This document shows positions 4,481-58,104 of a stretch of 64,000 bases of DNA, piece by piece. The notes under the pieces were generated by a model. It was not told where the DNA came from, searched no databases, and was given only the letters and a program-made list of their open reading frames with translations. The stretch's first letter is position 1. Every line of letters begins with the position of its first letter. Source of the DNA: Porphyra umbilicalis (lineage: Eukaryota > Rhodophyta > Bangiophyceae > Bangiales > Bangiaceae); contig KV918807.1 in the NCBI GenBank assembly GCA_002049455.2, positions 124,001 through 188,000 of the forward strand. The letters are read 5' to 3'. The translations under genes and the position numbers were made by a program.

Positions 4481-6478
4481 ATGGTGGACCACGCAGCGAT
4501 GGCGGTGGACGGCGGCAACGTCAACGGCGAGGCGCACGTGGCTCACGCCGTGGAGGGTGACGGACCCGACGTCAAACGGTCCATCGACCCGGAGATGCTG
4601 CGCCAGTGTAGGCCTAGCGGCATGTTCTATGCGCACGTTGGCCCAACCGAGGTGGCTGACGGGGTCCCGGTAATCGCTGACCAAGGTCTGTATGACATTT
4701 GCATTCGCAACCGCGCTCGCGCGCACACTCGGCGTCTTCCCGCGCGGTATGAGGCCCTGCCGGGCTTCGTCGACGTGTTGGCCGAACCCGGCGAACCCAG
4801 CCATGCTGGTGACCGTGTGTCCGAGGTCCATGGGGACCCGTTCTTTGGGAACCAGGGGCCACAGCGCCGTAAATACGAAGTCATGTCGTTTTGCAACGAA
4901 GTCATTCGGTACCAAGTGCTCTTGCACCCATTCCACCGTTTGGTGCACACCAACGCTTTGTTGTCTCCCGTGAGGGGGACAGAGACCTTCGAGGCGGCGG
5001 CCAACTCGTTTTGCCGCTTGTTTCGGAACTGGCCGAAGGTAGTTTTCCTCAGGCGCTCGGTGGCCACGGACCTCGCGGTTCCGATCGGCCACGATGCAGG
5101 TTTGGCGTAGTACCTGAATCAGCTTACGCTGGTGAAGGCGAAGGAGAACGACGCGGTCGATGAAGATCGAAGCCCTCGCATGAGCGAGCTACCGAACCCC
5201 TTTCGGCTGCCGCTCGTCGCGACCGACCATCTCCGCGCGGCGGTCACGCGGTTCTTCCGCGGGCGCGGGTTACTGCCGACGGAGTGTTCAGCCGGGCTTC
5301 TCTGGGCGCCGAAGTCATTTGACTTGTCTCGTTGGCTTCCGCCAGTCCCCCACTGGGAGCGCAAGACCGATATTTGGGTGGCGACCCCGGTTGTGGTGTC
5401 GCACCTGGCGGGCTCGTTGCGAAACGAGTATAGTTCTGCTTGGCAGATTGTGTACTCGGAGTACTGATGCAATCTGATTGCTGCTTGGGTTCGCACCCTT
5501 CAAGAGGACAAGGTATTTGTCCGTCTGGAAGAGAAGACACTTCGTCACTTTGACGTCCTGGACACGTCCAAACTGCGCGAGGCGCCTGATGGCGAGGCGG
5601 CACATGCCTTGTATGACAAGATGCGCCGAGCAATGGACGTGTTTCCTTGGGGGGTCATCCTTAAGGACGTGGTCCGTCGGGACCAAGACACCGGCGAGGC
5701 GCAACACGTGCGCGTGACGGTCGATGCGACCAAGGAGTTCGGCTCTTGCCTTCGGCACGCGTGTGTTGACTTCGACTGGGCACCTGACCCGAACGCTCCT
5801 GCCCATGTAGTACCGGTTCCTCTGAGCCACCTCGGGGTGTGGCGTCGCGGTCGAAAGACCCATCCGGAAGGGTCTTGTGCCATCGGTGGCGATCGTGGTG
5901 GTTACCACCGTCCGCGTTCGCCGCGTCGCGATCGCTCGCGGTCGCCGCGTCGCGATCGCTCGTGGTCTATATCGCCACCACGTGCCATTGAGGCCACTTG
6001 GCCGACGCGTGCCTCTTCCTCGCCGGCGGTTGCCCTGTTTGGGTCGGCCCTCGTGCGCGACGTGCGCCTTTGCGCGCCCCGTGGGGCTGCTGTGTCAGCG
6101 GTGGCACATGCCTGGGTGGATTAAGTGACCGGCTTGCGCCGCGCTGTGGAGCGGGTGGACGGGCACGGGGTTGAGTCGGACTTGGCCATCATTGGGCAGG
6201 CCGTGGCTCGCGCCGTTGATGGCGATGCCAACTACGAGCGCTTTGCTCAGCACCTCGAGGCTGTTCAGCCAGAGGAGGCGGTAGCGCCGACGCGCTTCAA
6301 CGCTCAGAGCGTCGTGGGGCGTCACGCCCATGTGGACGGGGGGCCGTCGGGCGGGGCCTCGCCGTCACCACGCAACACGTGCGCGCGTAGCGTCTCCCAG
6401 GAGTCGAGTGCCAGCGTTGGCTCTCGCCACCTTTGCCGTCGCGACTCGCGTCATAGCGATGAGGAGGAGGAGGAGTAG
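4481..6478 (+). pseudogene. antisense ORF protein of chromovirus, copy A (three stops)
   Basis: This ORF runs opposite to gag-pol and converges on it. It is the homologue of the intact ORF of copy B. All pieces lie in one frame with no frameshift over about 2 kb; only three nonsense codons break it (TAG 5108-5110, TGA 5465-5467, TAA 6122-6124). Copy B has Gln, Tyr and Gln there. Conserved blocks include RNRARAHTRR, VHGDPFFGNQGPQRR, NSFCRLFRNWPK, LPNPFRLP, WVATPVVVS and an Arg-Ser segment (RSPRRDRSRSPRRDRS). The C-terminus is acidic (DEEEEE). Identity to copy B is about 70 % by eye, with length differences only in multiples of three. I recognise no family. The 70-bp gap to the end of pol gives a tail-to-tail arrangement. 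Confidence 0.8.
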
Positions 6479-13335: not shown

Positions 13336-13963
13336 TGGTGCGTGTCCCAAAAATGAGACATGGCGGTTTTTTCTTTTTTTCTCGGCCCACTGGCCTTCTG
13401 CAACGGTCCGATAATGTAATGTGACCCACTCGGTCCCACTGTGCTTCCAGAACAGCCCCTGACAGTGTTAGCAGAGACGGCAGATCCTGACATGTCATGG
13501 GGGAAAGTGTCATTCCTTGTAACTTCGACAGGTGACAATCACGCGGCCCAATCAAATGCACAGATACTAGAGCAGGCATGTGCTGACAATTTGTGCACGA
13601 AGGAAAGGGCACCACCTTACCAATAAAAAAGTGAAAAAGACCCCCATGTAGCCCCCTGTGAGGAAAACACGATTTGGGACACCCCTCATCGAAGCTCCAG
13701 TTAGCACATGAGCTTTGGTGTTGCAAACCTTTAACCCCAAGAACCTGAAAAAGACTGGCTCCAAGATCGGGGCTATCTGAGAGGTCCACAGAACAGGGCC
13801 CACAGGCGGGTATTGAGGAGTTGTCAGCCAAGCACGCGTCGGGAGAGGCTCTTTCCATGGAGGCCAGTCGAGAATTTTCTCGTACCCCACGCCGCCTGCG
13901 CCCGTGCAGTGATGTGTCAGTCCTTCAGAAAACGCGCATGTCTCATTTTTGGGACACGCACCA
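13336..13963 (+). mobile_element. 628-bp TIR element (MITE), copy 1
   Basis: The element is bounded by TA on both sides, starts TGGTGCGTGTCCCAAAAATG and ends with its reverse complement. The terminal inverted repeats match for about 27 bp. Two further copies (56672-57299 and 57475-58102) have the same length of 628 bp by my count, the same ends and TA flanks. TA flanks and short TIRs suggest a non-autonomous Tc1/mariner-type element. ORFs of 110-180 codons recur inside the copies but differ in length and stop position, so I do not call a gene. Confidence 0.9.
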
Positions 13964-13974
13964 TAAAGGCGCGC

Positions 13975-14092: not shown

Positions 14093-14121
14093 CCACTGAA
14101 GAGCACCCTGTCCCAAAGGCC

Positions 14122-14817
14122 AATTCCAGGCACGTGTGTGCAATACCCTGGCCTTCAGGGCGGTGGCGCGCTCGGCAACGCATCGACACCGGGCACGCCG
14201 GCCGGCTCCATAGCCACGAGCGCGCACGGGGGCACGTACAGCCATGTTGCCGTGGCGGGGGGAGCGTGGGGCAGAGAAAGGGGTGCCGCCGCCGCCACCG
14301 CAGCGGCGGCGGCCCGCCGGGGTCGCGCGACGCCTCCGCCGCGGAGCGCACCTGCGCACAGCGGGCGGGGCGGCCGACATGGCACACGGGCGGTCGGGTG
14401 GAACCGACCGCCGCGCGACGGGGCGCCTCTAACCGCGCCGCTAGATGGCGTAAAAACCCGCCGAGCCGCCGCAACCGCAGCGGGCGCGCAGGCACGATCA
14501 CCCGCGGGTCATCGTGGGCGCGTCGAACCCCGGATATCGCTGCGTGCGGTCGCCGCGCGCAACACGGGGCGGTGGGAGGGGGTAGGGGGGCAGGCGCCGT
14601 CTGGGCCCTGTGACCCTTGTGGCAGGACAGTCCTGCTCAGCCGCGTAACTCTATTCGCTTTTAGCGCCATCGCGACCCTTCCAACGCCGGCACGCCCTCA
14701 GATCTCTGAGGACACGAATGCAGACTGCCACCTCTGAAACGGAGAGCAAGTCCCGTGGTTTAAGTATATGTGTGCATCACTACACTTTGAGAGCACCCTG
14801 TCCTAAAGGCCAGGGAA
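14122..14817 (+). repeat. dispersed repeat DR-A, copy 1
   Basis: About 700 bp is shared with 44189-44823 in the same orientation, from AATTCCAGGCACGTG to CCTAAAGGCCAGGGA. Near its ends CCCTGGCCTTCAGG and the reverse complement of CCTAAAGGCCAGGG form an imperfect inverted repeat, so a non-autonomous DNA transposon is likely. A second GAGCACCCTGTCCCAAAGGC just before the left end (14101) duplicates the right end, as if another copy abuts it. The very GC-rich middle explains the ORFs seen in all frames, which I do not call. Confidence 0.8.
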
Positions 14818-23806: not shown

Positions 23807-23924
23807 GGGCGGGGGAGGTGAGGGTAGGCAAGCGGACAAGGGTGCACGCGGCAAGGACGTGCAGCGGTGGGCCAGGATGGCGACTACTACGGAGCGCGCC
23901 GCTATCATGTGGGGCACTACAAAG

Positions 23925-24309
23925 TGTAGCATATCTCTGCTCCCAATTGGCAATTAGCCACGAGTAGCCCCCTTGACTGGCTGAATCCACGGATTTGTGT
24001 GACTCGGCTTGTGGCACGCCCTTTGGGGGGTTACTTCCGCATTGTTTATTTTTTACTGCTTGCCCGTCTTATCTGTCTGCCGGCACTCATTACGATCGCT
24101 TGATCGGATGGTCTATCGACCAGTGCCGTTGTTTGTATTAAACCACCGTGGGTCCGGGGTCGCCGTCGTGGGCACCACCCGGCTCCCCATCGGATGCCCT
24201 TCAACAAAAGGTCTTCTTCCTCGCCGCGACGGCGATAGAACTCGCTTTATTGCTTGGCTACGGTCGGTCTCAGTACACTGGTAATTGAACTAACGTTATT
24301 AATACCACA
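23925..24309 (+). repeat. 5' LTR of copy B
   Basis: 385 bp, TGTAGCATATC...AATACCACA. It matches the LTRs of copy A and the 3' LTR of this copy with scattered substitutions and small indels. Confidence 0.95.
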
Positions 24310-24539: not shown

Positions 24540-25493
24540 ATGTCTACTGGTGGTACCGGCGGCACTCGGCGAGCCAGAGACGGCAAGTTGCCATCTGGCT
24601 ACCGGCCGCCGGGCGGGGGACAAGGCACTCCTGCCGCCTCCGACGCCCCAACGGACGGCGCTCCAACTCCTCCCATCCCTGCGGATCAAGCCGCCTCTGG
24701 GCAGATGCAGGTGGTGGAGAGCCTGAAGGCGGCCGTTGAAGCACTTCAGCGACGCCTAACGGCCCAAGAACAGACTAACGAGTCTCTGGCGCGAGCCAAT
24801 GACAAGTTGGTCGACGACGTCGAGGCCCTGCGCAAGGTCGACTCCCATGAGGAGGAACGCCGTGTGGCTAAGTCTCGCCGCCGGTCGGGCGACAAGACCA
24901 AGGATGTGAAGAAGACGAGCAAGGTGATCAAGGACAAGTCCGTCCGCAAGGACGCTCCGGCTAACGCCGCGCTTTCCTCATCTTCCGACGATTCCGCCTC
25001 TGGGTCAAGCCCGACGTCGTCAGACGACGACAACCCCAACGCGACGGACACGTCCTCTTCGAACGATGGCCACGGGCCCCCACACCCGCCGTCGCCCCCA
25101 AGTGGGTCCTCGCCGAGCGACAGCTCGAGCGAGTCGGACGCGGCCGCGCGCAAGCGCCCCGCGCCCCCGACCAAACGGAAGGAGCGACTTGAAAAAGCCG
25201 ATAGGATCAAGGTGATCCGCCCGGCTAATAGCCGCTTCAAGACACTCCTGGACTACAGGACGTACTTCCTGATCCGCCGTCAACTGACGTATACGCCTAA
25301 AGAGGCACAGCGGTCGCACCGTCTCAACAAACGTTTGGACGGAGCGTTCCATGGGCAACAGCCATTCACGGGAGCCCTGCCCTTGGGCATCTTCACGTTC
25401 ATGACGACCTTTCGCCGCAAAGTGTGCCGAGCCTTATCGCCCCCGCGAGCGTCGACAACCGCCTATCGGCGTTCATGCCCTTTCCGACGGTAA
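24540..25493 (+). pseudogene. gag, internally deleted
   Basis: ATG at 24540. Residues 1-60 are Gly/Pro-rich. A predicted coiled coil (MQVVESLKAAVEALQRRLTA) follows at about 58-100, then a Lys/Arg patch and a long Ser/Asp-rich linker. From about residue 220 a helical region starts (KTLLDYRTYFLIRRQLTYTP) that resembles the start of a capsid domain. At 25411-25419 (TTCGCCGCA) the sequence jumps to the end of the zinc knuckle, as shown by copy A, where the same nine bases lie inside the knuckle codons. Most of capsid and nucleocapsid is therefore missing. A one-base loss near 25548 puts the remaining gag tail (25420-25493 and on) out of frame with pol. Confidence 0.8.
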
Positions 25494-25559: not shown

Positions 25560-28500
25560 GTGCCCGACTTGGGGTTGCCCGGCGGAACGCGAAAGCGTAC
25601 GGTGACAAGACTCTTACGTCGTGCCCTTCGGCACTATGAGATCGCAGCCACTTTAGGCCCATGCCTGCGCGTAATGCGAAGTTGCCGCCCTGTCTTAGAC
25701 ACGGGCGCCGGGGTGAACATAGTGCGAACTAGTGTTCTCCCTTCGAACTGGATGGCTTACGCCGAAGAGTTGACTACGCTTCCGCGCATCCGAGATGCAA
25801 ACAACAATCGTCTTGTGACGAAGTATGCCATACATCTGTATGTAGACACCGGAGGTGTGCGTCTATTTGACCGATTCCTGGTTGCCAACAACTTGTCAGT
25901 CCCGTGCATTCTTGGCACCGAGTTCATTGAACAAAACATCGAGGGCATTCTGCCGCGCTTGCGCAAAATCGTCTGGAAAGAGCACGTGCGATGCACGGAA
26001 GAGCAACCTCGGCCAACGCCGATCTTAGCTTGTCTCAACGACAGCGCGTGGGACCGCCACTGGCAAGATAAACCCGCTCGGGTTCGAGCCTGCAAACAGG
26101 TGCGTGTCAACGGACACAAGGAGGAGTGGATCATGGCCACGTGCGACACGCCTGGTATGGTTACCATCACACCGAACATTCGGTTGTGCCGACACAAGTC
26201 CATGGCAGTCGCCCGCGGCATCGCCATCGTCAAGCCCGACAAACCATTCCTGGTCAAGTTATGCAACTTCGGCAAGGACCAAGTCATTGTTCGCAAGAAC
26301 TCTACCTTGGGGTTTTCAGAACCCTATCAAGGGCCGATGCTTTCCGCCGTCTTGGATGACAACACCCCAAAGGGTGGAACCGATAACTCATCGGACGACG
26401 CAAGTCGTGACCCACTCGAAGACCTCGACCTTAGTGAGGCACCCGAGTACCTGCACAAGCAGATTCGAGACATGCTTAAGACGCATTCGTCTATGTGGGA
26501 TGGAACCCTTGGCGTCATCCGTGCTACGGAGCACGCCATCGTCACTCCTCCCGACGCTCTGCCCATACGGGCCCAACCCTACCGGACCGGGCCGTTCAAA
26601 CGGCAGATCATCGCTGATCAGATCAACAAGATGTTGAAGCTCAACGTCATTGCCCCTAGCCATAGTGCTTGGGCAAGCCCCGTGGTAATTGTACCAAAGA
26701 AGAACGGCAAAGCCCGATTATTTGTCGACTATCGTCGGTTAAACAACATCACCAAGAAGGATGCTTATCCCTTGCCTCGGATGGAGGACTGCCTCAACTC
26801 CTTGGAAGATGCCCAGGTGTTCACGTCTCTCGACTGCACCGCGGGGTACTGGCAAGTACCCTTCCGCAAGGAAGACCAAGAGAAGATGGCGTTCACAACG
26901 CATTGTGGTATATACCACTGGTTATCCATGCCTTTCGGCTTGACGAACGCGCCCGCTACCTTTCAGCGCGCGTTGGATATTATCCTCTCGGGCTTGAAGT
27001 GGCAGATATGCCTTGTCTACTTAGACGATGTCATCATCTTCTCCGCCAACGCGGAACAACACGTCAAAGACGTTGACACGGTTCTTCACCGTCTCCGAGA
27101 AGCCGGGGTCACCCTCAACTTGGAAAAGTGCACGTGGTTCTCCGATGAGGTCGAGTACCTAGGACACATTGTCCGCCCCGGGCAACTGCACGTGCACAAC
27201 AAGAACGTGGATGCTCTGAAGCATGCCAAGTTCCCAACGACAAAGACCAAGCTGAAAAGCTTCTTGGGCATGTGCAACGTCTATCGACGGTTTGTCAAAG
27301 ACTTTGCCAAACGAGAAAAGCCCCTGAACGCCCTGACTAGGGCCGAGATCCCACCGGAATTACCACAACCGACGGACGTGGCTTTCGCCGCCTTCGAGGA
27401 CCTTCGCAACGCATTGTTGTGCCCACCGGTACTTGCCTTGCCGAAGGCCAATCGGAAACTCGTCGTCGACGTGGACGCATGCGCCGACCAAGTTGGTTGT
27501 ATCCTCCTCCAAGAGGAGCCGGGCGAACTGCTTCACCCTGTCGGGTATTGGAGCCGAGGACTCACTGCTGCAGAGCAAAAATACTCCACCACGGAGCGAG
27601 AATGCCTCGGCGTCGTGTGGGCTGTCCTCAAGTTGAGGCACTTCCTCGACGGGCAACGGTTCCTCATCCGAACAAATCACCAAGCACTTAGCTGGATCTA
27701 CAGCACGACCGACTCAAGCGGACGCTTAATGCGATGGCGACTTCGCCTCTCCGAATACACATTCGATATGGTTTATAAACCAGGTGCATCTCACCACTTG
27801 CCCGACTTCCTGTCGCGCGCCTCTACGGTGGCGCCGCCAGAAGATATCCATGACGATGTACCTTGTCTGGCATTGGCCGAGACGGCCAACGGCTTAAGAA
27901 CGGGGAGGTACACGGGTACCGACACACCGGAACCGGTGGAGTTCGACGATGTTGTCGAAGCACAACAAACAGACGCCTTCTGCGTCGAGATGTCCACTCG
28001 CGTGGAGCGCGGAACGGCCAAGGCCTTCTTCCGCGATGAGCATCACGCTCTGTACCGCCGTGCGCCATACGGCAATCAACTGGTTATTCCAAAGTCTCTA
28101 CGCGAACGCGTGTTGACCCTCGAGCACCACGCAACCGTGGCCGCCCATCCTGGTACGAACCGGATGTATTACACAATGCGTAAGGCATACTTTTGGCCTT
28201 CAATGGTGACGGATATTCATTCGACCATCACCAAATGCACAACGTGTGCGCAAAATCGCCTCGCCTTGCGGCGACACACCACGCCCTTGACGCTGTTCCA
28301 GGCTACCGAGCCTCTCACGGAGCTGTCCGTTGACATCTTTGGGCCCATCCCGGCCTCCAAGAAGGGCAATCGCTTCATCTTGGTTATCACCGACCGCTTC
28401 GCCAAGCTCACCAAGTGCGTCGCCTTGCGGCGAATCACGGCCATGTCAGTGGCGTCAGCCATCATCGACGCGTGGGTGTCAGGCTACGGGCCACCGGACC

Positions 28501-30086
28501 GGATCCTATCGGACCAAGGGCCCCAGTTCATGTCGAACTTCTTCATCGCTGTGATGAAAATGCTTGGCATTGAAACGGTTCGCACCACGGCGTATCGTCC
28601 CCAAACCAATGGGCAAGTCGAACGGTAGAATTGTACCATGGCTACTCAGCTGCGACAGTACGTCGCCGACGACCCACCACGATGGGATGAGCTACTCCCG
28701 GTAATCACCATGGCGTATAATAGCCAACCACATCGGTCGACGGGCATCGCCGCATTTGAGCACGTTATCCCAAGGCGGATCCCCAACGTCACGGTCTGCA
28801 ACTTGCCCCCGGGCACTCCGCTTACCAATAAGGGAACGCTCAAGGATGGGTCGCCCCTAGCTCGCAAACGCGAGTTCATGGCCCGCCTGCGCAAGCAGAT
28901 CCCTATCGTGGTCGAGGCCTTGCGTAAGACGCAACAACGTTACAAACGTAACTTCGACCATCGGGTCGCCACCCGCAATGCGGACGTCAAGATCGGCGAC
29001 TACGTATACACGACCAACCACGACCGGCAAAACAAGCTGCAAAGCAAAGCCATCGGACCCTTCGTGGTCATTGACGCAGACGCGGACGCCTCCACGTTTG
29101 TCATTGACATTGATGGCGAGGAGAAACGCGTCAGCAGTGACCATGTCACCCCAGCTCCTCGTCCAACGACGACGGACACGATTCCACACCCCCTGCTAGA
29201 TGGTCTAGACCAACGCAAGTCACCCTCGGCCACTGCCGATGAGTATGTGATCGACAAACTCCTAGGCTTACGCCAGACGGGTGACAGCTATAGCGCTAAG
29301 GTGCGCTGGTTCGACTACGGGTCGAAGGACGACACTTGGGAACCCCTGGAGAACCTCCCCCGCAACCTGGTGGTGCGTTTCCTTCGACAGAAGAAGAAGC
29401 ATGTACCGGGGTACGAGTGGCAAACGCCAACGCGACGAAGTCGCCGACAGGCCGGGCTCACAACCGTGGCCAACATCGTCGAGGACTCCACGTGGATACC
29501 CACTATCCAACATGTCCATGTGACCGGTGACGGAGTTATCCATGCCGACGTCGCGTGGACAGAGTCAAGTACAGACGTTGCAATTAATGAAGTAATTCCT
29601 GTGGTGTGGCTCAAGTCCACTCTGCCGTCCATGACGAGCAACTTTGCGTATGATCCCCAACTTGCCTTGCGGCATTTCTCTCGGCTGAACCGTGTTTACG
29701 GCCCGTACACATACGTGTGGCCGAAATCCGCACAGGCGACACTGATCGGGAGCGATCCCCCTGTACCAGTGCTCCCCAACGGGTTTCTGGTACCTCCGGT
29801 GCAACACTTGGACTCAGTCCTTCGACGCTTGGTAACAACCACAGAGGAAGCCACCGTGGTAATACCCCAATGGACCAACACCAGTTGGTACGCTACTGCC
29901 ATACGTGCATGTTTCGAGTACGAAGTGCTTTTGTCAGCAGACTCAAGGGATACAAATCCCACAACATGGACCATGATGGCCTGCCACTTCCTTCATAGCT
30001 ATGACGATAAACAGAAAAACTGAGAAGTGGATATAAACATGTCAAACGACAAACAACAACAAGACGAAGAAACATCAACACCCTAA
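25560..30086 (+). pseudogene. pol polyprotein: PR-RT-RNaseH-IN-chromodomain, two stops
   Basis: One frame from 25560. Protease DTGAG is at 25698-25712. Reverse transcriptase has YLDD at 27018-27029. RNase H follows (VVDVDACADQ, TERECLG), but the usual TDHQAL is TNHQAL, changing a catalytic Asp. Integrase has an HHCC region (TLEHHATVAAH, CTTCAQNR) and a DDE core (SVDIFGP, LSDQGPQF, GQVER). TAG at 28626-28628 comes directly after the catalytic Glu; copy A has TAC. The frame resumes through a GPF motif and a chromodomain (about 29238-29394, YVIDKLLGLRQTG ... DDTWEPLENL). A roughly 200-residue extension follows, with TGA at 30021-30023 (TGT in copy A) shortly before the natural TAA at 30084-30086. 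Gag and pol were probably one ORF originally. Confidence 0.95.
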
Positions 30087-30165
30087 AAAGGCGGAAGACC
30101 CCGACATTGTCAACCCGACCCCCCCACCGGGGTCAACCGAGCAAGTCACTGAACAGTGAACCTCG

Positions 30166-32123
30166 CTACTCCTCGTCGTCACGAAGACGCGAGTCCCGGC
30201 GGGAATCGCGGCTCGCGCCAACGCTGGCCGCCGACTCCTGCGAGACACTACGCGCACGCGTGTTGCGCGCCGAGAGCGGAACCCCCGTCGACGGGCCTCC
30301 GCCCTCGTGGGTCCGACGACCAAGGATGCTCTGCGCGTTGAAGCGCGCCGGCGTGGCCTCCTCCTCTGGCTGGATAGCCTCGAGGTGCTGGGCGAAGCGC
30401 CCGTATTTGGCCTCGCCGTCAACGGCGCGAGCCACGGCCTGTCCAATAATTGACAAAGCCAACTCGACACCCCGTCCGTCCGCGCGCTCAACAGCGGTAC
30501 GCAAGCCTGCGATCTGCTCGACCCAGGCGCTAGCCATCGCCGACAAGGCTGCCCTGCGGGGCGCGCGAGCGCGTACATCGCGCGCGCGCGCCGACCCAAA
30601 CAAGGCAACCGCCGCGGTGGAAGATGCGCGGGTCGGCCAAGTGGCATCCACCGCCCGGGGCGGAGATGGCGAGCGATCGCGCCGCGGTGAACGCGGGCGG
30701 TAGCGGCCCTCTCGGGCGTCGCCAACGGCGTGAGCCCAGGTCCGACGACCACGACGCCACACCCCGGGATGGTTCGAAGTGATTCGAGCCATCGGGAGTG
30801 GCGCGTTCGGGTCCAACGCCCAGTCGAAATCGACACAAGGGTGGCGAAGGCAAAAGCCGTACTCCTTGGTCGGGTCGACCGTGACCCGCACCTGACGGGC
30901 TTCCCCGGAGTCGCGGTCGCGCCAGACGACGTCCTTAAGGACCTCCCGCCAGGGAAACGCCGTCACGGCTTGACGCATCTTGCCGAACAAGACGTACTTG
31001 GCTTCGCCGTCGGGCGCGTCCTTCAACTTGGACGTATCCAACGCGTCGAAATGACGAAGCGTCTTCGTGTCCAAGTGGACGAAGAGCTTGTCCTCCTGCA
31101 GGGTGTGAACCCACGCAGCAACTAAGTTGCAATAGTACTCGGAGTACACCTCCTGCCAGACGGAGCTGTAGGCGTTGCGCAACGCATCCGCCAGGTACGA
31201 CACCACCACGGGGGTCGCCACCCACAACCCCGTGTGGGGCTCCCACTCCGGGATAGGCGGAAGCCAACGGGACAAGTCGAACTCCCGTGGCGCACGGAGA
31301 AATCCCGCCGCCCACGCGGTGGGCATCAACTCGCGACCGCGAAAGAAGCGCGTGTCAGCGGCCCGACGGTGGTGGGATGGGAACATCGGCAGCCGAAAAG
31401 GGTTCGGCAACCCGGTGACCCGCGGACTGCGGTCATCCTCGACGTTGTCGCTCTCCTCGTGCTTCACCAGCGCGAGCTGCTCGAGGTACTGCTCCAGACC
31501 GGAGTCGTGCCCGAACGGGACCGAAAGGTCCTCGGCGAGAGCCCGCTTGAGGAAGACGGCCTTCGGCCAGTTGCGCAGCAAGCGGCAAAACGAGTTGGCC
31601 GCCGCCTCGATCGTCTCTGTACCATTCACAGGGAACATAAGCGCATTGGCGTACACCAAACGGTGGAACGGGTGCAAGGGCAATTGGTAACGCACGATCT
31701 CGTTGCAAAACGACATCACCTCGTATACACGACGCTGAGGACCCTGGTTCCCAAAGTACGGGTCCCCATGGACCTCGGCCACGCGGTCGCCCGCGTGGTC
31801 CGGCAATCCGGCTTGCGCCATCACGTCGATGAGGTCGGGCAACGCCTCGTAGTGCGCGTAGACACGGCGCGTGTGCGCACGAGCGCGGTTGCGTACGCAC
31901 ATCTCGTACAGACGGTTGTCGGTGACTCGCGGGACCCCATCGACCACCTCCACAGGGTTCGCGTGTACGTAGTACCAGCCGCGAGGCCGAAACTGGCGCA
32001 AGACCTCCGGATCCGCGGAGCAATCCACTTCCAGATGGCCCCCCGCGGCGGCATGCGCCCCGTCGATGGCCTCATCGCCACCGGCAACGCCGACGTCCAC
32101 CGCCATCGCGGCTGAATTCGCCA
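30166..32123 (-). CDS. antisense ORF of chromovirus, unknown protein (copy B, intact)
   Basis: An uninterrupted minus-strand ORF of about 650 codons, convergent with pol and 80 bp from its natural end. I take the ATG at 32121-32123, which aligns with the start supported in copy A. The frame stays open upstream to 32796 through Gly/Lys repeats, so a longer form is possible. Order: variable N-terminus, a conserved core of about 450 residues (blocks RNRARAHTRR, NQGPQRRVYEVMSFCNE, ANSFCRLLRNWPKAVF, LPNPFRLPMF, WVATPVVVSYLADAL, WREVLKDVVWRD, LRHPCVDFDWALDPN), an Arg-Ser segment (RSPRRDRSPSPPR) and an acidic C-terminus (RDDEE). No signal peptide, membrane helix or known catalytic motif is seen. The basic RS stretch suggests nucleic-acid binding. 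Antisense ORFs are known in some plant Tat/Grande Ty3-Gypsy elements, but I see no sequence similarity that I can name. Confidence 0.85.
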
Positions 32124-32160
32124 TCGCGTTGGCCGTTCGGGGGGTGTTTACCCTGGCTGT

Positions 32161-32370
32161 CGCCGCCGGGTTGCCGCGCTTGCCGCCCTTGCCGCAGCGC
32201 TTGCCGCCCTTGCCGCCGTCGCCGCCGGGCTTGCCGCGCTTGCCGCCCTTGCCGCAGCGCTTGCCGCCCTCGCCGCCGTCGACGCCGGGCTTGCCGCGCC
32301 TGCCGCCCTTGCCGCAGCGCTTGCCGCCCTTGCCGCCGTCGCCGCCGGGCTTGCCGCCCTTGCCGCCGTG
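32161..32370. repeat. 60-bp tandem repeat in antisense leader
   Basis: Three and a half units of exactly 60 bp (starting at 32161, 32221, 32281 and 32341) with only a few substitutions. On the minus strand each would encode a 20-residue Gly/Lys/Arg-rich unit (GGDGGKGGKRCGKGGKRGKP). Copy A has a degenerate equivalent at 4150-4440. Confidence 0.9.
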
Positions 32371-33145
32371 CGCGCCGCCCCCCCCACCCCGCGCAAACCC
32401 ACACTCACCGGGCCCACCATCTCGCGGTGTGCCACCTTGCGGCGGCGCACCCCTACTCAACCTTGCCGTTAGGCAGCGACCTGTGAGTGAGCACGAAGAC
32501 ACGGGATGGCCCTGTGCCGACACAACGCGACCCGCACCCCGGCTTCGCCGTGTCGTCGGGGGAGTCAACACCCCGACGAGGGCGGCGCCTGCCGTCACGA
32601 CGAGAACCCCAGCTGGTGCTGCCCCGCGCGCACGCCTCGGTGCTAACCGGCCTGGAGGTGTGAACCCCACCCCCACGCTCGGCACCACGGACCCGCGTCC
32701 TGGCTTTCGCCGTGTCGTCGGGGTAGTCAAACCCCCGACGAAGGAGCGCCACTCGGCGCCGACGACGGTTGCCCCAACACGTGTTGCACGACGCACCCGC
32801 CACCAACGGGTCTTAACCCCGACGCTCGTTGCCTGTCAACCGGCCGTCTGGCCACCACGCCGACCCGACGCCGACTCGCCTGCGAGGGCGCGCGTACGCG
32901 CAAGCGCCGGTCGGACCCGCAGCGTCAGCTGCCCGCACCCACGCCCACGCGTGTGTGGCGGGACGGTCGCGACCGACGACGGCGAACCGCCACCTCCCCC
33001 CAATGGGACTGGGCGGCGCGCCCCCCACGGCTCCCGCCGCCTGGGCGGTTGCGCTTGCGCGGGCCCGTAAGAGGCCGCGATCGCCCAATCGGGGTTCACC
33101 ATCCTCGGATCTCACCGGGACGGTTCGAATCTCGCGTTGGAGGTA
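32371..33145. other. spacer between antisense ORF and 3' LTR, copy B
   Basis: No gene is recognised. The stretch matches 3523-4150 of copy A in inverse orientation. It contains a direct duplication of a GGCTTTCGCCGTGTCGTCGG-type block near 32545 and 32702. The last bases before the LTR (TTGGAGGTA) are the putative polypurine primer, identical to copy A. Any promoter for the antisense ORF should lie here or in the LTR. Confidence 0.5.
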
Positions 33146-33539
33146 TGTAGCATATCTCTGCTACCAATTAGCAATTAGCCACGAATAGCCCCCTTGACTG
33201 GCCGAATCCACGGATGTGTGTGACTCGGCTTGTGGCACGCCCTTTGGGGGGTTACTTCCGCATTGTTGATTTTTTATTTGCTGGTTTGCTTGCCTGTCTT
33301 ATCTGTCTGCCGGCACTCATTACGATCGCTTGATCGGATGGTCGATCGACCAGTGCCGTTGTTTGTATTAAACCACCGTTGGTCCGGGGTCGCCGTCGTG
33401 GGCACCACCCGGCTCCCATCGGATGCCCTTCAACAAAAGGTCTTTCTTCCTCGCCGCGTCGGCGATAGAACTCGCTTTATTGCTTGGCTACGGTCGGTCT
33501 CAGTATACTGGTAATTGAATCAACGTTATCAATACCACA
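33146..33539 (+). repeat. 3' LTR of copy B
   Basis: 394 bp, TGTAGCATATC...AATACCACA, matching the 5' LTR of this copy with scattered substitutions and small indels. It ends one base before ACTACTGCTG, which is flanking DNA. Confidence 0.95.
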
Positions 33540-35115
33540 ACTACTGCTGAGTCAGAAGTGTGACTAGGAGACCGTCATCTATTGAGGGACGAGGCTCGAC
33601 CGCCAGAAAGAAAGAGACCGTGCCATCGAGCAAGGGCAACGGAGCTCCGTCTGACGTCTGTGCGCGTACCTCTGAGTGATGCTACGAATGGTAAGCAGCC
33701 ATCCGCATGTTGCTAAAGAGACGAGTGGCCACGAAAGGAAGGAGTGGAGTGGCCCGCAGCCTGTGACATTGTGTTCCCAGCCCTTCTGACGAGGAAACCG
33801 CCGGGACTGAATCAGCCAATCACACCATTCTTGCCTCGCACGAGGCACCGCTGGCAGCTTTTCTACGCCGAATTCAGCCGCTGGAATGGCCTTGTGTACA
33901 CCAATGAAAAGAAGCATTGCTCCTGACCGTGTGCTGCCTGTGCGCCCCGCATCGTTGGTCCCAGATTATGGCGCTGCCTACACCACACACCCTCAACAGG
34001 CGGTGACGCGGCCACGCTCTCGCTTACTGGGGCCTAGAATTGGCACCATGTGGTGGACTCTCAGTTTGACAGGCGGACGTGAGGATGCGACGACGGGATG
34101 GAGGTGAGGCAGCCGCCTCGTCTTGGTCGCACTCGTGAGGTGGCCCGCAGGCTATACAGCCACAACTGCTGCGCGGATCCTCGCGGCCTCTCTCTCCCCC
34201 TATTTCGGGTGGAGGGCCCGCCCCGATCAGAGGCTGGTCATTGGCTTCTGCCTCTAGCGGGGGCATCGCCACCATTTTCACTTGTGCGCCCTCGTGCGGG
34301 ACAGATTGTCAGCACCTGCATGCGCAGGACCCCACAGGAAGAGGGCCCTGACGGAGCCCTGTGGCCGGTGAACGGCCTCTGGGAGCAATGTGCTCATGTG
34401 AGCCTGTGGTGGCAGGGGCCTCGCCACTCTGCCCTCGCCTGATTCCCACAAAGATCCCACCGTCGCCTGCACCCACCCTCACCGCCAGCGCCCACCGTCG
34501 CTTGCGCCCCCACCGTCGCCCGTGGCCGCCATCGCCCATCATCGCCTGCGCCGCCGTCGCGTGCACCGCCGTCTTTCGCGCGCGCACTTTCCGCGCGCGA
34601 CTTTATTACCACTCATTGGTGCCTGCTTCGTTGGTCGGTTCTGCCGGGGCTCCCCCTGCAGCTGCCAGCGGGTGGCGCTCGTGCGCCCTGGACAGCGCGC
34701 GCTTTTCTTGCCCGCGTCTTGGGTCCACTTTTGGCCGCGGTGGCAGCGGGCTTGCCCCTGCTCCCCCGACCTCCTTTTGCTCCCCTCTAGCTCCCAGTTT
34801 TTGTGACAGCGGCTGGCCGCGGCCGTGTTAGTGGCTGCCGCCGGCGGGTTTGCGGCTGCCGCCGGCGGGTTTGCGGCTGCTGCCGGCGGGTTTGTGGCGC
34901 CCGCGCTTTTTTCTTACGCCTCGGAGCCCTTCGCGGACGCCGCCTGGCCACCCCGCGGCGGCCGCTCGGGCTCCCGACGCCGGCGGATCGCGTGGTGGCG
35001 GGCAGCGGCTGCCGCCGGCAGGCGCGGCCAGCTGCCGCTGCCGGCTGCGACCGGGATCCTCGGGCAGCCAGTTGCCCCTACAAAAGGGCGGCTGCCGCTG
35101 CCTCCTGCGACCGCC
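33540..35115. other. no recognised gene
   Basis: Between copy B and the next gene there are only short ORFs. From about 34440 the DNA becomes CACCGTCGC-rich, and around 34830-34890 it contains tandem CGGCTGCCGCCGGCGGGTTTG units (about 21 bp). No gene is supported. Confidence 0.45.
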
Positions 35116-38062
35116 ATGCCCCGCATGAAGCGATTTGACAACACCACGCGGCGGAGGGAGCAGCAGAGACGGGAGCGCCAACGCGTCGCGCAGTGGGTGG
35201 CGGCAGTTGCCCCCCACTTCGACCACTGCCAGTGGCAGTGCTGCTGCCCACCGCCGCGACCAAGACCGGTGCAGCAAGGGGCGAGAGGCGAGCAGCCGCT
35301 TCCTGGAGGTAGGCGGCCAAGCCCAACAAGGAGGACGGGAGGACGACCGCCCGAACGCCAGCCGCCGAGCCCACCGCGGTGGACCGGCGGGCGACCGACA
35401 AGCCCGCCAAGGTCGGGGGGCGGCCTACCGCCCGACCGCCGACCGTCGAGCCCTCCGAGGTAGGGCGGCGGGCTGGCTCCCGACCGCTGACCGTCAAGCC
35501 CGCCGCGGTGGGAGGGCGCTCCGCCGAACGACCGCCAACCACCAAGCCCACCGCGGTGGACGGGCGGACGACCGTCAAGCCCGCCAAGGTGGGGGGGCGG
35601 TCCGCCACACGACTGCCGACTGCAAAGCCCACAACGGTAGACAAGCGGGCGACCACCAAGCCCTCCGAGGTGGAGCGGCGGCCCGCAACCCGACCGCCGA
35701 CCGTCGAGCCCACAACGGTGGACGAGCGAGCGACCACCAAGCCCGCCTAGGTGGAGCCGCGGCCCGCAACCCGACCGCCGACCATCGAGCCCGCCAAAGT
35801 GGAGCGGCGGCCCGCCGACCGATTTCTATCCACCAAACCCACCCCGGTGGACGGGCGGACGACCGTCGAGCCCGCAAAGGTGGGGGGGCGGGCCGCCACG
35901 CGACCAAAGACCGGCAAGCCCGCGGAGGTGGGAGAGCGGGCCGCCGCCCAACAACCTACCGCCGAGCCCGCGGAGGTGGGGGAGCGGACCGCCGCCGAAC
36001 GGCTAACCTTCACGACTGCCGCATCTGCGGCGGCATCCACATCGGGCGCATCCTCTTTCTCACTCTTTGGCTTTTGGCCTCCCCGCGAGCAGTGGGCCCA
36101 GCGGGCCCAGCGGAAGCGGCGGACCGTGCGGCCGCGCAGTCCCGAGCGACTGGTGGCGAATCGCCGTTTCGCAGTCGCCGACGCAACAGCAGCTGCCGTT
36201 GCCGCGGCGGCCAGGGCGGCCGCTGCGGCGGCCAGGGCGGCCGCTGCGGCCGCCGCGGCCGCGGCCGAGTCGGAGTCCGCGCGAGCCTCCTACCGAGCGT
36301 CGGTGGCGGTCACCGCTGCGGCCAAGCGCGCGGCCAGGAACGCCGAGGCTACTGCAGCTACGCTGGCGGTGGCCTCGAGCAAGGCCGCGGTCGCTGTGTC
36401 CTAACTCACGGGCGGATACGTGCAGCAACCAGTGGTGGCGGCGACCGCCGCTGGCACGGGAGCGGTTGCCGCTGCCGTCAATCGGCCCACGCCTAAACGG
36501 CTGGGCTGCGGCGGCGGCCGACCCCCTCTTCCACCGGCGTCATGTCGCCGTGGTGGTGACGCCGCCAGGTCGGTCGGCTGAAGGACAAAGACCGGTTTAA
36601 GTCGGAGGCCGCCGACTTTGCTGCCCTGCAGAAGCGGACCGCTGCCACGCAGGTACGTGCAGCGGCAAGGGAGGCGGCCGCCGCTGAGGCGGGCGGCGAT
36701 GGGCCGGCCGCTGAGCAAGCGGCTGCCGAGGGGGACCCGGCGCCGGCGGCCGCCGCGAATGCGGAGGCGGCCGCCGGCAATTCTGACAATGGTGCGGCAC
36801 CTGTCGATCTGGTTGAGAGCGGCAAAGACGAGGAGCAGAGCCCATGGGCGGGCCGCCCCATCGGAACCAAGGCGGCCAAGCGCGCACGAGCTGAAGGCAT
36901 TGCCGACGACCGCACAATCGGCCGTGTCGCGAGCGCGGCGGAGAAATTGGGGGAAGCAACGACGCAGCAGACGAACATGATGGCATTCAGTCTTCCATTC
37001 ATGCGCGAGACGCCTATGGAGGCGGCCTTTTGGGCGCACCAAGCCAAAAGGATGCTGGCGGCGGAAGGCATCTAGGTGCCACCGTCCAAGGCGGCGGCAG
37101 ACGCGTCCGTTGCTGCCGAGGGTGCGGCCAACGGCACCAACACCAGCACCGTGAGCGCACCACCCACCTTGGGCGAGGCTGCCGACGTCTCTGCTACTGG
37201 GGGCGTGGCGGCGCAGGACGACGTCATGATTGTGGGTGACACGCCGTCGAATGTGACGCCGCCGGCCGCCGCGCCAACGTCGGCGGCTGAGGCGGCGGCG
37301 GCCGTATCGACGCGAAGGCGGGCAGCAACCGCGGAGGATACTCGTACGGCGGCCGCCACTGCCTCGTTGGCGGCTCCGGGCTTGAACGTGGGGGCGGCCG
37401 CGGCCGCGTTGACGCGGGGGCGGGGAGCAAACTCCTCCGCGACGCACTCGGCGGCCGCCGCTGCCTCGTTGGCGGCTCCAGGCTCGGCGGCGGTGGCGGC
37501 GGCGGCCGCGTCGACGCCGACGTCGGCGGTCACCGCGGCGGCAACGCCTTCGGCGGTTGCTGCTGGCTGTTCGGAAGCGCCAGGCCCGTCAAGTAACGTC
37601 GTCATGGGGGCGCCGACGCCAACGGTGCGGGCGGCCGCCAAGGCTGCCCATAAGCAGCGCGGCCGCCGCGCGCAGGCGACTAAGCGAAAGCAGGCGGCCG
37701 CCTCTATTGACGCGCCGCTCCAGACAACCGTGGACCTGACGTTGCCACCAGCCGCTGCGCCTCCTGCGCGGCCTTCATCGCCTGTGACGGCGGCGGCGGA
37801 CGCGGCAGCGGCGGTGGCATCTGCAGACGCGGGCGGCGCGTCCCAGGCCTCTGGTCTTTAGCGGCGGCAGCCGCCGTCGGTGGCGTCATCAGACAGCTCA
37901 GTGTCCGAAGGCGGCGGCTTCGACGGCTTTGACTCTGACCTCATCGAGGCGTTTGCGCGCAACGGTGCGAGCTGCTCAAGTGGGTCGGGAGAGGAGGAGT
38001 ATACGGACCTGGTCATGCCCATTGCTTGTCTTTTCTGTTTTTGTTGTTGCCGAGCCTGCTGA
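35116..38062 (+). CDS. large low-complexity, probably nuclear protein with repeats and in-frame TAGs
   Basis: Exon model by codon bias. Exon 1 starts at ATG 35116 with a basic segment (MPRMKRFDNTTRRREQQRRE). After a likely intron ending in AG at about 35312, the frame encodes 11- and 16-residue repeats of the form T-x-K/E-P-x-x-V-x-x-R (35313-36000). An Ala-rich helical stretch follows to the TAA at 36402-36404. A new exon opens after CCGCCAG at about 36568 and encodes Ala/Glu-rich sequence, then WAGRPIGTKAAKRARAEG, which resembles the RPxGxKxAK core of NAM-associated/Myb-like transposon partner proteins. Ser/Ala-rich and acidic segments follow. In-frame TAG codons at 35748, 37073 and 37859 interrupt otherwise coherent coding. 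It could be a pseudogene, or contain unrecognised splice sites. Confidence 0.5.
35313..36000 (+). repeat. 48/33-bp compound tandem repeat, coding
   Basis: Units of 48 bp and 33 bp, both multiples of three, alternate as an 81-bp higher-order unit. Each encodes a variant of TVKPAKVGGR or TTKPTTVDER. Substitutions preserve the Pro, Val and Arg positions, which supports this frame as the coding one. One unit carries TAG (35748-35750) where sister units have AAG or GAG. Confidence 0.75.
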
Positions 38063-39860: not shown

Positions 39861-40089
39861 TGCCGTCAAGCGGGCGACCTTCAACCGCCCGCGTGTGTGG
39901 CGTGCTTTCCCCCAGCCCGTGCCGGCGCTTCTGGAGCGGCACCCCTTGTTTGTGCGCCGCCGCCGTCGCTACCAAGGCGCAGCAACCACCATTGCGCGGA
40001 GAGGGGTCGGATGGGTTCGGCGGGAGTCAGTCGGTGCGTGGCGCGACGGCCGTCGTCAGCTGCCGCTGCTGGCGTTGCGCGCTGGCGGC

Positions 40090-40860
40090 ACGGCGACCGC
40101 CTCCGGACGCGTACAAGTGCGGCGGCCGCCAATGATGGCGTCGTCATTGCGTGCTCGGCGCACAAAGAAAAGGACGGCGGCCGCCAGACGACGTTTACAA
40201 GTGTGGCGGCGGCCGCAGCGCTCGTGCGAGATCAGCGGTGGCCGCCGCAAGACACACAAGAGAGCGGCGGCGGCCGCCGTTTGTGCCGTTCCTCGGCGGC
40301 AGGCGCACGAGCAAGTGCGCCCGCCGCCACCGCGCGGGGCTGGCGTCAGCGGCGGCCGCCGCCGGACGCGTACAAGTTTGGCGGCCACCGACGATGGCGT
40401 CGTCAATGCGTGCTCGGCGCACAATGAAAAGGACGGCGGCCGCCAGCCGACGTGTACAAGTGTGGCGGCGGCCGCCGCGCACGCCTGTATGCGGCGGCGC
40501 GCGCTCCAGACACCAAGACAAGGACGACGGCCGCCCGCCGACATGCCCAAGTGTGGCGGCGGCCGCCGCGCACGCCTCTGGTCGGCGGTGACCGCGGTGG
40601 CCGCCGCTGCATGTTGCACAAGCCGGCGGCGGCGGCCGCCGCCGCATGACGCACAAACGGGCGGCGGCGGCTGCCGGGCCTGCATATCGTCGGCGGCAGG
40701 CACACGTAAGAATGCGCCAGCTGACATCGGGCCGGGCTGGCGTCGGCGGCGGCCGCCGCCGGACGTGGACAAGGGCGGCGGCCGCCGACGATGTCGTCAT
40801 CTATGCGTGCTCGGCGCACAATGACAAGGACGGAGGCCGGCTGCCGACTTGCACTAGTGT
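40090..40860. repeat. CGGCGGCCGCC-rich satellite-like array
   Basis: The units contain GCGTGCTCGGCGCACAA and ACAAGTGTGGCGGCGGCC and recur near 40150, 40405 and 40808, with shorter subunits between. Dozens of self-complementary CGGCGGCCGCCG motifs are scattered through it. Open frames run through both strands because the repeat lacks stops. I see no protein-like segment. Confidence 0.7.
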
Positions 40861-41034
40861 GCACTATTATGTTGCTAACAATGGAGGGGTATAGAAGGAT
40901 AACACCTGGTCGGGTCGAAACAATGATAGAGGACGCCCGCAGAGAAAAAGAGATGAAATGATCACACATAGCCGCTCATACGACACGCCCGCGGGGTAGA
41001 AAAGAAAGGCAAGCAAGCGACACCCAAACTTGAA

Positions 41035-44188: not shown

Positions 44189-44823
44189 CAATTCCAGGCA
44201 CGTGCGTGCAATACCCTGGCCTTCAGGGCGGTGGCGCGCTTGGCGACGCATCGACACCGGGCACGCCGGCCGACTCCATAGCCGCGAGCGAGCATGGGGG
44301 CACGCACAGCCACGTTGCCGTGGCGGGGGAAACGTGGGGCGGGGAAAAGGGTGCCGCCGCCGGCACCGTAACGGCGGCGGCTCGCCGGCGTCGCGCGACG
44401 CCGACGGGAGGGGCCTTCACTCCGCCGCGCAGCGCACCTCTAAACGCGCCGCTAGATGGCAGGCCGACGGGCCGCCGCAACAGAAGCCGGTGCGCAGGCA
44501 CGATCACCCGCGGGTCATCGCGGGCGCGTTCAACCCCCGTAGTCGCTGCGCGCGGTCGCCGCGCCCAACTCAGGGCGGTGGGGGGTGATAGGGGGGCAGG
44601 CACCGTCCGGGCCCTGTGACCCTTGTGGCAGGACAGTCCTTCTCAGCCACGTAACTCTATTCGCTTTTAGCGTCATCGCGACCCTTCCAACGTCGACACG
44701 CCCTCAGATCCCTGAGGACACGAATGCAGACTGCCACCTCTGAAACGGAGAGCAAGTCCCGTGATCTAAGTATATGTGTGCATCACTACACTTTGAGAGC
44801 ACCCTGTCCTAAATGCCAGGGAA
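44189..44823 (+). repeat. dispersed repeat DR-A, copy 2
   Basis: Same orientation as copy 1 (14122-14817), from AATTCCAGGCACGTG to AAATGCCAGGGA. It is about 60 bp shorter through deletions in the GC-rich middle. The AT-richer end (TATATGTGTGCATCACTACA) is nearly identical in both. Confidence 0.8.
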
Positions 44824-47054: not shown

Positions 47055-48692
47055 CTAGTAGGTACGGCGGCAAACGTTGTACTGGCACTCGCTGCCCTTG
47101 ACGCAGACGGTCCGCGTGTAGCCACCGCACGGCCCGCCCACCGGCGACTCCTTGGCACACTTGCCCGACTCACAGCGGGTGCCATCCGCGCAGAAGGCGT
47201 TGGTAGACCCGCCGCACGGCCCGCCCGCCGCCGACTCCTCCTGGCACAAGTTGTTCTTGCACTCAGTACCAGCGCTGCACGTGTACCCGCTGTCGCCGCC
47301 GCACTCACCGCCGAGCGGCGACTCCATGGTGCATCGGCCGTCGGTGCACGTGGCACCTTCGTCCTTGCAATAAGCGTCGGTCGAGCCGCCGCACGGCCCA
47401 CCGACGGGCGACCCCTTCTGGCACATACCGTCCTGGCAATCCGTCCCGTCCACACAAGTGTACCCGCTGTCGACGCCGCACTCACCACCGAGCGGCGACT
47501 CCTTGGTGCACCGGCCGTCCGTGCACGTCGCACCTTCGTCCGTGCAATAAGCGTTGGTCGAGCCGCCGCACGGCCCGCCAACGGGCGACCCCGTCTGGCA
47601 CATACCATCCTGGCAATCCGTCCCCTTCACACACGTGTACCCGCTGTCGCCACCGCACTTACCGCCGAGCGGCGACTCCTTGGTGCACCGGCCGTCGGTG
47701 CACGTCGCACCTTCGTCCGTGCAATAAGCGTTGGTCGAGCCGCCGCACGGCCCGCCGACGGGCGACCCCTTCTGGCACATACCGTCCTGGCAATCCGTCC
47801 CGTCCACGCACATGAACCCGCTGTCGTCGCCGCACTTACCGCCGAGCGGCGACTCCATGGTGCACTGGCCGTCGGTGCACTTGGCCTCGTCGTCCTTGCA
47901 ATAAGCGTTGGTCGAGCCGCCGCACGGCCCGCCGACGGGCGACCCCGTCTGGCACATACCGTCCTGGCAATCCGTCCCATCTACGCACGTGTACCCGCTG
48001 TCGCCGCCGCACTCACCGCCGAGCGGCGACTCCTTGGAGCACCGGCCGTCGGTGCACGTCGCACCTTCGTCCGTGCAATAAGCGTTGGTCGAGCCGCCGC
48101 ACGGCCCGCCGACGGGCGACCCCGTCTGGCACATACCATCCTGGCAATCCGTCCCGTCCACGCACGTGTACCCGCTGTCGCCGCCGCACTTACCGCCGAG
48201 CGGCGACTCCTTGGTGCACCGGCCGTCGGTACACTTGGCCTCGTCGTCCTTGCAATAAGCGTTGGTCGAGCCGCCGCACGGCCCGCCGACGGGCGACCCC
48301 GTCTGGCACATACCATCCTGGCAATCCGTCCCGTCCACGCACGTGTACCCGCTGTCGCCGCCGCACTTACCGCCGAGCGGCGACTCCATGGTGCACCGGC
48401 CGTCGGTACACTTGGCCTCGTCGTCCTTGCAATAAGCGTTGGTCGAGCCGCCGCACGGCCCGCCGACTGGCGATTCCGTCTTGCACGTCCCGTGCTCACA
48501 TTTGCCTGGGGAGCGGCACGTCTGCCCATACTCGCCGCACTTGCCACCCAGGGGGACTCCATAGTACGTGGAGCGCGCGGTCGTCGATAGCGCGACACCG
48601 CCCCCGGCAGGGACGGCCGTGACGGTCACAAACGACGACACGGTCAGCACCGTCGCGACGGTGGCGACCACGGCGACACGGGCACCCACCAT
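47055..48692 (-). CDS. secreted protein with seven 59-residue Cys-rich repeats
   Basis: I choose the ATG at 48690-48692 because it opens directly into a signal peptide (MVGARVAVVATVATVLTVSS); an ATG 23 codons upstream would put hydrophilic sequence first. The mature protein has a short divergent Cys-rich lead, seven tandem units of 59 residues (177 bp) and a partial eighth, ending in TAG at 47055-47057. Each unit holds eight cysteines in two half-units of the pattern C-x(6,7)-C-x(5,6)-C-x4-C, for example GGPCGGSTNAYC...CTDGRC and GGKCGGDSGYTC...CQDGMC. DNA identity between units is high, so the array expands by unequal exchange or conversion. The pattern recalls small disulfide-rich extracellular modules, but I cannot assign a family. 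The long ORF on the opposite strand is a shadow. Confidence 0.9.
   Translation of the reverse strand: MVGARVAVVATVATVLTVSSFVTVTAVPAGGGVALSTTARSTYYGVPLGGKCGEYGQTCRSPGKCEHGTCKTESPVGGPCGGSTNAYCKDDEAKCTDGRCTMESPLGGKCGGDSGYTCVDGTDCQDGMCQTGSPVGGPCGGSTNAYCKDDEAKCTDGRCTKESPLGGKCGGDSGYTCVDGTDCQDGMCQTGSPVGGPCGGSTNAYCTDEGATCTDGRCSKESPLGGECGGDSGYTCVDGTDCQDGMCQTGSPVGGPCGGSTNAYCKDDEAKCTDGQCTMESPLGGKCGDDSGFMCVDGTDCQDGMCQKGSPVGGPCGGSTNAYCTDEGATCTDGRCTKESPLGGKCGGDSGYTCVKGTDCQDGMCQTGSPVGGPCGGSTNAYCTDEGATCTDGRCTKESPLGGECGVDSGYTCVDGTDCQDGMCQKGSPVGGPCGGSTDAYCKDEGATCTDGRCTMESPLGGECGGDSGYTCSAGTECKNNLCQEESAAGGPCGGSTNAFCADGTRCESGKCAKESPVGGPCGGYTRTVCVKGSECQYNVCRRTY
47196..48470. repeat. 177-bp coding tandem array
   Basis: The block GTCGAGCCGCCGCACGGCCC recurs every 177 bp at about 47378, 47555, 47732, 47909, 48086, 48263 and 48440. 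Two sequence subtypes (KDDEAKC and TDEGATC in translation) are interspersed, and the outermost units are the most divergent. Confidence 0.92.
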
Positions 48693-56630: not shown

Positions 56631-56670
56631 AGTATCCCGTGGGGAGGATATATCCTCCCCACGGGATACT
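56631..56670. repeat. perfect 40-bp palindrome
   Basis: Two exact 20-bp arms (AGTATCCCGTGGGGAGGATA and its complement) with no spacer. It lies 10 bp from the right inverted end of the 55048-56620 element, and the TA flanking MITE copy 2 overlaps its last base. It can extrude as a cruciform. Confidence 0.95.
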
Positions 56671-56671
56671 A

Positions 56672-57299: not shown

Positions 57300-57474
57300 T
57301 AAAGTCTATCCCATTCTATTAGACCCCTTAGAGCATTGTTATCAATGAGATGCTATCCCCATATTCAAGCCACGTTGCAAAACGTGTCCCATTAAGCACC
57401 TGAAGTCTGACGTAACACCACTTTTTAGACGAAGAAGCCCTTTTTTTTTCGGGCCATGGAAATCGAACTACCTA

Positions 57475-58102: not shown

Positions 58103-58104
58103 TA

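Follow-up and report, generated by a model that had tools for sequence, protein, structure and literature searches.

A chromodomain Ty3/gypsy retrotransposon of the red alga Porphyra umbilicalis with a conserved antisense gene between pol and the 3' LTR

The long antisense frame between pol and the 3' LTR of a Ty3/gypsy element of Porphyra umbilicalis is a protein-coding gene, the third gene of the element, and its protein is kept by selection in the replicating lineages about as strictly as the pol end. The window, by which we mean the whole stretch of 64 kb that was analysed, contains two copies, A and B, of one chromodomain element in opposite orientations, copy A running in the reverse direction relative to copy B at roughly 3.1-11.8 kb. 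In copy B the gene occupies part of the interval that separates the end of pol at 30023 from the LTR beginning at 33146, and the two genes converge tail to tail. The features referred to below are as follows.

23925..24309, plus strand: 5' LTR of copy B; the LTR pair is 96.1% identical over 384 positions
24540..25493, plus strand: a shortened gag in copy B; in other genome copies, where the frames are longer, it is matched to residue ~298
25560..28628, plus strand: pol of copy B (protease-like, reverse transcriptase, RNase H, integrase), from the ORF list and Pfam
28638..30023, plus strand: pol end of copy B with the chromodomain (PF00385, E 9.4e-07)
30024..30165, no strand: convergent gap of 142 bp between the pol end and the end of the antisense gene
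30166..32124, minus strand: antisense gene of copy B, 652 codons, with a conserved core, a short Arg/Ser/Pro linker, a conserved C-terminal segment and an acidic end
32125..33145, minus strand: leader of copy B from the 3' LTR to the antisense start, a putative promoter region whose part closest to the start has GC-rich repeats
32554..32578, no strand: palindrome copy 2 in the leader, near-identical to copy 1
32716..32740, no strand: palindrome copy 1 in the leader, CGTCGGGG...CCCCGACG, with a TTGACT-type centre
33146..33539, plus strand: 3' LTR of copy B, the other member of the same pair (96.1% over 384 positions)
4481..6478, plus strand: antisense gene of copy A in the same frame, with nonsense codons 210, 329 and 548

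Reverse transcriptase, RNase H and integrase follow one another in order and a chromodomain comes after the integrase, the arrangement that defines a chromovirus; the Pfam matches (PF00385, E 9.4e-07, above the cut-off; PF00078, E 3.6e-38; PF00665, E 1.3e-09) bear out the chromodomain Ty3/gypsy context that had been predicted. The pol of copy B carries one in-frame TAG at 28626-28628. Gag open frames in other genome copies most often have 568 or 627 codons, and among the genome-wide gag matches these two length clusters are found alike in copies with an intact and in copies with a deleted antisense gene. No obvious target-site duplication flanks copy B (CAAAG before and ACTAC after; 23913-23925 and 33540-33551), which may be a recombinant.

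The window holds further repeats. Seven copies in register, 75-87% alike at 177-nt spacing, make up a tandem array at 47185-48546 that gives ORFs over 500 aa on both strands, and repeat arrays of 48/81/129-nt and 259/397-nt spacing lie at 35263-35996 and 39976-40861. A 632-nt stretch, possibly another repeat or mobile element, is present in three copies that are 96% alike (13334-13965, 56670-57301 and 57473-58104), two of them mutually inverted and 171 nt apart, and direct repeats 91% alike lie 30 kb apart at 14121-14757 and 44189-44763.

The minus-strand frame of copy B, with its stop end at 30166, is open up to 32796. We prefer the start codon at 32124 (MANSAAM, conserved as M-A-(D/N)-S-A-A-M), which gives 652 codons, because the repeats upstream change frame between copies and are therefore probably outside the protein; an N-terminal extension through them, read in a Gly-Lys-rich frame in B and an Ala-Ser-rich one in most other B copies, was rejected. 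The original prediction of an antisense ORF of about 650 codons between pol and the 3' LTR thus needs no more than a start moved one base beyond the end it had given. Among 500 dinucleotide shuffles of 30024-33146, none had a stop-free frame of at least 652 codons (mean 302, maximum 624), the frame observed in that test being 889 codons with the upstream repeats included. Length alone is nevertheless the weaker evidence, because the window has 31 ORFs of 250 aa or more.

Comparison of the two copies in the window speaks more directly to the protein. In a frame-blind nucleotide alignment the only gaps between A and B are of 9, 6, 9, 30 and 6 bases, and the differences are distributed 138/109/268 over the three codon positions, in agreement with the earlier claim that copy A keeps the frame without a frameshift, with three nonsense codons and with indels in multiples of three. 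The antisense frame has a dS of 0.81, a dN of 0.21 and a dN/dS of 0.264, compared with dN/dS of 1.24 and 1.65 in the shifted frames of the same strand and of 1.28, 0.35 and 1.64 on the opposite strand; the value of 0.35 belongs to the frame that mirrors the wobble position, which is interrupted by 13 stops in either copy. Two details of the prediction need adjustment. The identity of A and B, put at ~70% by eye, is 433 of 648 residues (66.8%) when measured. The core, the Arg-Ser segment and the acidic tail are all present, but the Arg-Ser segment is short, and RS plus SR dipeptides in the whole B protein number 8, against 8.2 expected from composition.

To extend the comparison to the genome, variants were split into those private to one copy, which are mostly post-insertion, and those common to at least two copies, which are mostly transmitted by replicating elements. 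For the antisense gene at 21 B loci, the shared variants comprise 64 synonymous, 13 nonsynonymous and 1 nonsense (w 0.08), and the private ones 75 synonymous, 119 nonsynonymous and 2 nonsense (w 0.63; neutral N/S 2.52); with all 30 B loci the synonymous-to-nonsynonymous counts are 72:21 shared and 89:140 private. At the 20 of 21 A loci used, 227 synonymous, 150 nonsynonymous and 7 nonsense variants are shared (w 0.26), and 301 synonymous, 635 nonsynonymous and 24 nonsense are private (w 0.84; neutral N/S 2.50). The pol end, counted at those 33 of 51 loci that have long ungapped pol ends (18 were dropped), gives 26:13 shared (w 0.20) and 68:85 private (w 0.49) at 21 B loci, and 84:46 shared (w 0.21) and 128:283 private (w 0.86) at 12 A loci. 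An earlier pol-end count (shared 55:60) was set aside, its alignment being judged misaligned in places. Departure of the shared counts from neutrality ranges from p 7.5e-7 (pol end, B) to p 2.6e-37 (antisense gene, A), in tests that assume independent variants and involve no tree.

Because the shared variants of the antisense gene have a w like that of the pol end, we conclude that its protein is maintained by selection in the replicating lineages. Since the choice of loci followed the antisense protein score, the private variants are skewed toward fewer amino-acid changes and the indels are skewed as well; for this reason no weight was given to the finding that the antisense ORF is almost free of indels in the 30 best B copies, with a single gap run of 2 nt. 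The contrast between shared and private variants and the comparison of A with B have a basis beyond the score ranking. Selection on the protein had been proposed from the two window copies, with dN/dS across many copies suggested as a check, and the proposal is upheld by the A/B dN/dS of 0.26, by shared-variant values across many copies (0.08 in B and 0.26 in A) that are not near 1 and by the shuffles.

The gene is also a fixed part of the element. In the host assembly (83.8 Mb), the B protein search gave 468 candidates, of which the best 68 were scored; no internal stop is present in 46 of these 68 and at least one in the other 22. The A-like subfamily, 67 scored of 552 candidates, overlaps the B-search list. 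Genome-wide matches number 179 for a motif of the antisense gene and 270 for one of the pol end, the reversed patterns giving 0. Among the matches listed, 38 of 100 have a pol motif 2405-2483 bp from the antisense motif on the same strand, with control offsets giving 0, 3, 0, 0 and 0, and 33 of 42 pairs of gag start and antisense ORF are 6249-6267 bp apart. It is this constant spacing to both gag and pol that identifies the antisense gene as belonging to the element.

Alongside the intact copies there is a family in which most of the gene is missing. Among the matches listed, 27 of 54 gag-plus-pol copies are without an antisense match. In one of these 27 (C49, L062, read for 1001 bases) the pol end jumps to ~codon 84 and the sequence then runs through the gene start into the repeats, so that the antisense gene is lost from ~codon 84 on. 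With up to 3 mismatches allowed, this junction has 67 genomic matches (36+31), against 0 for the reversed control; C49 is the copy read base by base, and the others were recognised from the junction sequence only. The gene's intact 3' end gives 103 matches (48+55; 100 listed). Of the 27 copies initially without an antisense match, 18 have the junction, 1 the intact end and 8 neither. When copies are chosen by gag (n=125), the 3' end of the gene is intact in 55, deleted in 28 and neither in 42; when chosen by the pol end (n=40), the corresponding numbers are 28, 9 and 3. The recurrent junction is best read as one deletion multiplied by transposition. The 67 copies with this common junction then imply that the gene is not needed in cis and that the element multiplies without an antisense core of its own. 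Taken together with selection in the intact lineages, this points to a protein supplied in trans, or dispensable under some conditions, and either would reconcile the deletion family with the selection.

A first protein search returned 35 relatives and a later one 116, which include those 35; nearly all of them are metagenome proteins, 56-93% identical. The one named relative, MMPV_005735 of Pyropia vietnamensis, is 38% identical over 84% of the query and belongs to a cluster of 74 members. Within the P. umbilicalis genome, a third lineage is represented by one locus (C91:116436-118058, L061), 36-41% identical to the other genome copies. It carries a single in-frame TAA close to the start, and none of the 80 matches that were scored is a sister copy; it could be a relic, or else a host gene that descends from the element. 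The B, A-type, C91 and P. vietnamensis proteins align along nearly their whole length, including those that are ~40% identical to the others. That the protein matches no known family, as was first remarked, fits the Pfam, NCBIfam and PDB sequence searches, none of which gave a significant relative at the cut-offs used; a PDB profile search gave 0 matches, and among viral contigs none of 30 stretches with the pattern was a relative. A search with pol returned 4237 proteins, nearly all of them without names among the 120 matches listed.

An antisense ORF placed after pol and before the 3' LTR is already well known from Grande, RIRE2, Retand, PvRetro13 and the fungal element Boty (PMC7264820; PMC11963269; PMC8365987), and a review of plant elements, which lists accessory ORFs of this orientation from several families of plants and from one fungal element, gives their functions as unknown (PMC7264820). 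Grande of maize, with gene23, and RIRE2 of rice are Tat-type Ty3/gypsy elements that likewise have the ORF in this position, and there it is kept in most copies (PMC7264820); ours differs in carrying a chromodomain and in being hosted by a red alga. Retand resembles our element in having tandem repeats and an antisense ORF (in its case TRP28, PF04195) in the stretch from pol to the 3' LTR, and is reported to have some non-autonomous relatives (PMC11963269). It is placed, however, in a non-chromovirus lineage of flowering plants (PMC11963269), unlike an element with PF00385 at its pol end, and Pfam scans of the B protein (E up to 1) and of P0034, P0002 and L061 (E up to 5) do not return its hallmark, PF04195. 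This absence and the red-algal host fit the suggestion, made at the outset, of a case independent of or distant from Grande and Retand. Boty of Botrytis cinerea, a Ty3/gypsy element outside plants, likewise carries an antisense extra gene, brtn (PMC7264820, PMC8365987), in a fungal host. With the HTLV antisense gene near the 3' LTR we draw an analogy of layout and claim no homology; its promoter is described as lying inside the 3' LTR (PMC7264820), while that of our element would lie in the leader, outside the LTR. None of the open-licence papers listed in the literature searches was seen to report such an ORF from a red-algal element. What appears to be new here is a probably unrelated protein family, the red-algal host group, and the presence of multiplied gene-less copies beside intact ones.

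We propose, with somewhat more confidence than doubt, that this third gene has its own promoter and encodes a nuclear accessory factor that raises the success of the element and is usable by other copies. The antisense gene would be transcribed from the 1-kb leader adjoining the 3' LTR, and translated as a separate protein of ~650 residues. The leader is likely to be the promoter region of the gene: of its 42 blocks of 24 nt, 30 are matched in 29 of 29 other B copies (up to 3 mismatches) and 5 in none, and one block ~400 bp upstream of the antisense start is present in 19 of 21 A copies. The twin palindromes with their TTGACT-type centres are candidate regulator sites. A nuclear role of the predicted protein is most likely by analogy with Grande gene23, described as a nuclear protein whose gene is transcribed from its own upstream region (PMC7264820); as an accessory factor the protein might, for example, aid the expression, export or protection of element RNA or DNA. 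It would probably serve other copies as well, as the deletion family suggests, and copies without the gene could for that reason still multiply. The lack of a transmembrane-like stretch and the conservation of the leader also speak for this reading. Against it we count the nonsense variants, some of them shared (1 in the B loci, 7 in the A loci), the internal stops in 22 of the 68 best-scoring copies, the deletion family and the RS count.

The two window copies differ along their length in a manner that any model has to accommodate. By 300-column bins, A and B are 83-97% identical in pol, 72-77% in the antisense gene and 76-88% beyond it, with 64% in the repeats adjoining the antisense start. 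Mean synonymous divergence from A to B is 0.90 in the antisense gene (100 comparisons; values near 0.9 are close to saturation) and 0.27 in the pol end (55 comparisons), a difference of ~3.3 times, while within A the means are 0.29 and 0.21, respectively. The raised synonymous divergence of the gene relative to the pol end suggests that the antisense cassette may have been exchanged between lineages, or that pol may have been homogenised; a local difference in mutation rate is a less likely cause of the step. Let us assume exchange. Lineages alike in pol would then differ in their version of a trans-acting regulator, the versions having diverged long ago, and the gene-deleted family would be a cheater supplied by intact copies. 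We regard this extended picture as a tentative possibility; if true, it would place helper, variant and parasite together in one genome. The same step might instead reflect a host arms race, which would leave the A and B versions far more diverged than pol, were the gene real and its protein directed against the host, as a silencing suppressor, or concerned with steering integration. The synonymous divergence, the identity step along the element and a trans effect consistent with the deletion family favour such a role. Nevertheless, amino-acid change from A to B is constrained and not accelerated (w 0.26), none of the Pfam, NCBIfam and PDB searches gave a relative with such a function, and exchange or homogenisation of pol accounts for the step without an arms race, so that we hold this explanation to be rather unlikely.

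Other origins and roles seem to us considerably harder to sustain. The size of the gene, its place between pol and the 3' LTR, and selection as strict as that on pol would suit a structural or envelope-like protein translated from an antisense RNA of subgenomic length, yet env-like genes of elements are sense, the protein has no transmembrane-like stretch (maximum 19-residue Kyte-Doolittle mean 1.08) and the deletion family has multiplied; we consider this improbable. Little probability, too, attaches to a host gene or foreign mobile gene captured in antisense and carried as a passenger. The divergent C91 homologue, solitary among the scored matches, could be the host or ancestral gene such a scenario needs, whereas the long-term selection within the element, the lack of inverted repeats around the module, and the P. 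vietnamensis homologue, whose cluster of 74 members is to be expected of a repeat but not of a lone host gene, argue against it. A nested DNA transposon was also considered and rejected, the two module ends sharing only chance matches of 7-8 nt. Finally, GC-rich DNA gives long chance frames, as the number of long ORFs in the window illustrates, and regulatory antisense RNA has been discussed for other elements (PMC7264820), so the frame might be a by-product of composition or of selection on an antisense RNA, with no protein made. The codon-position pattern, the dN/dS values, the gaps in threes, the shared variants, the ~40% identity of the proteins along nearly their whole length and the failure of all 500 shuffles to reach the length make this very improbable indeed.

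The protein described here, an antisense product without recognised relatives, in a distant host, and with codon-level purifying selection on the variants that are transmitted, is accompanied by a natural experiment: intact copies stand beside at least 67 copies with a common deletion junction, by which a role in cis can be tested against one in trans. The purpose of an antisense retrotransposon gene thereby becomes directly testable in the genome copies of Porphyra umbilicalis.
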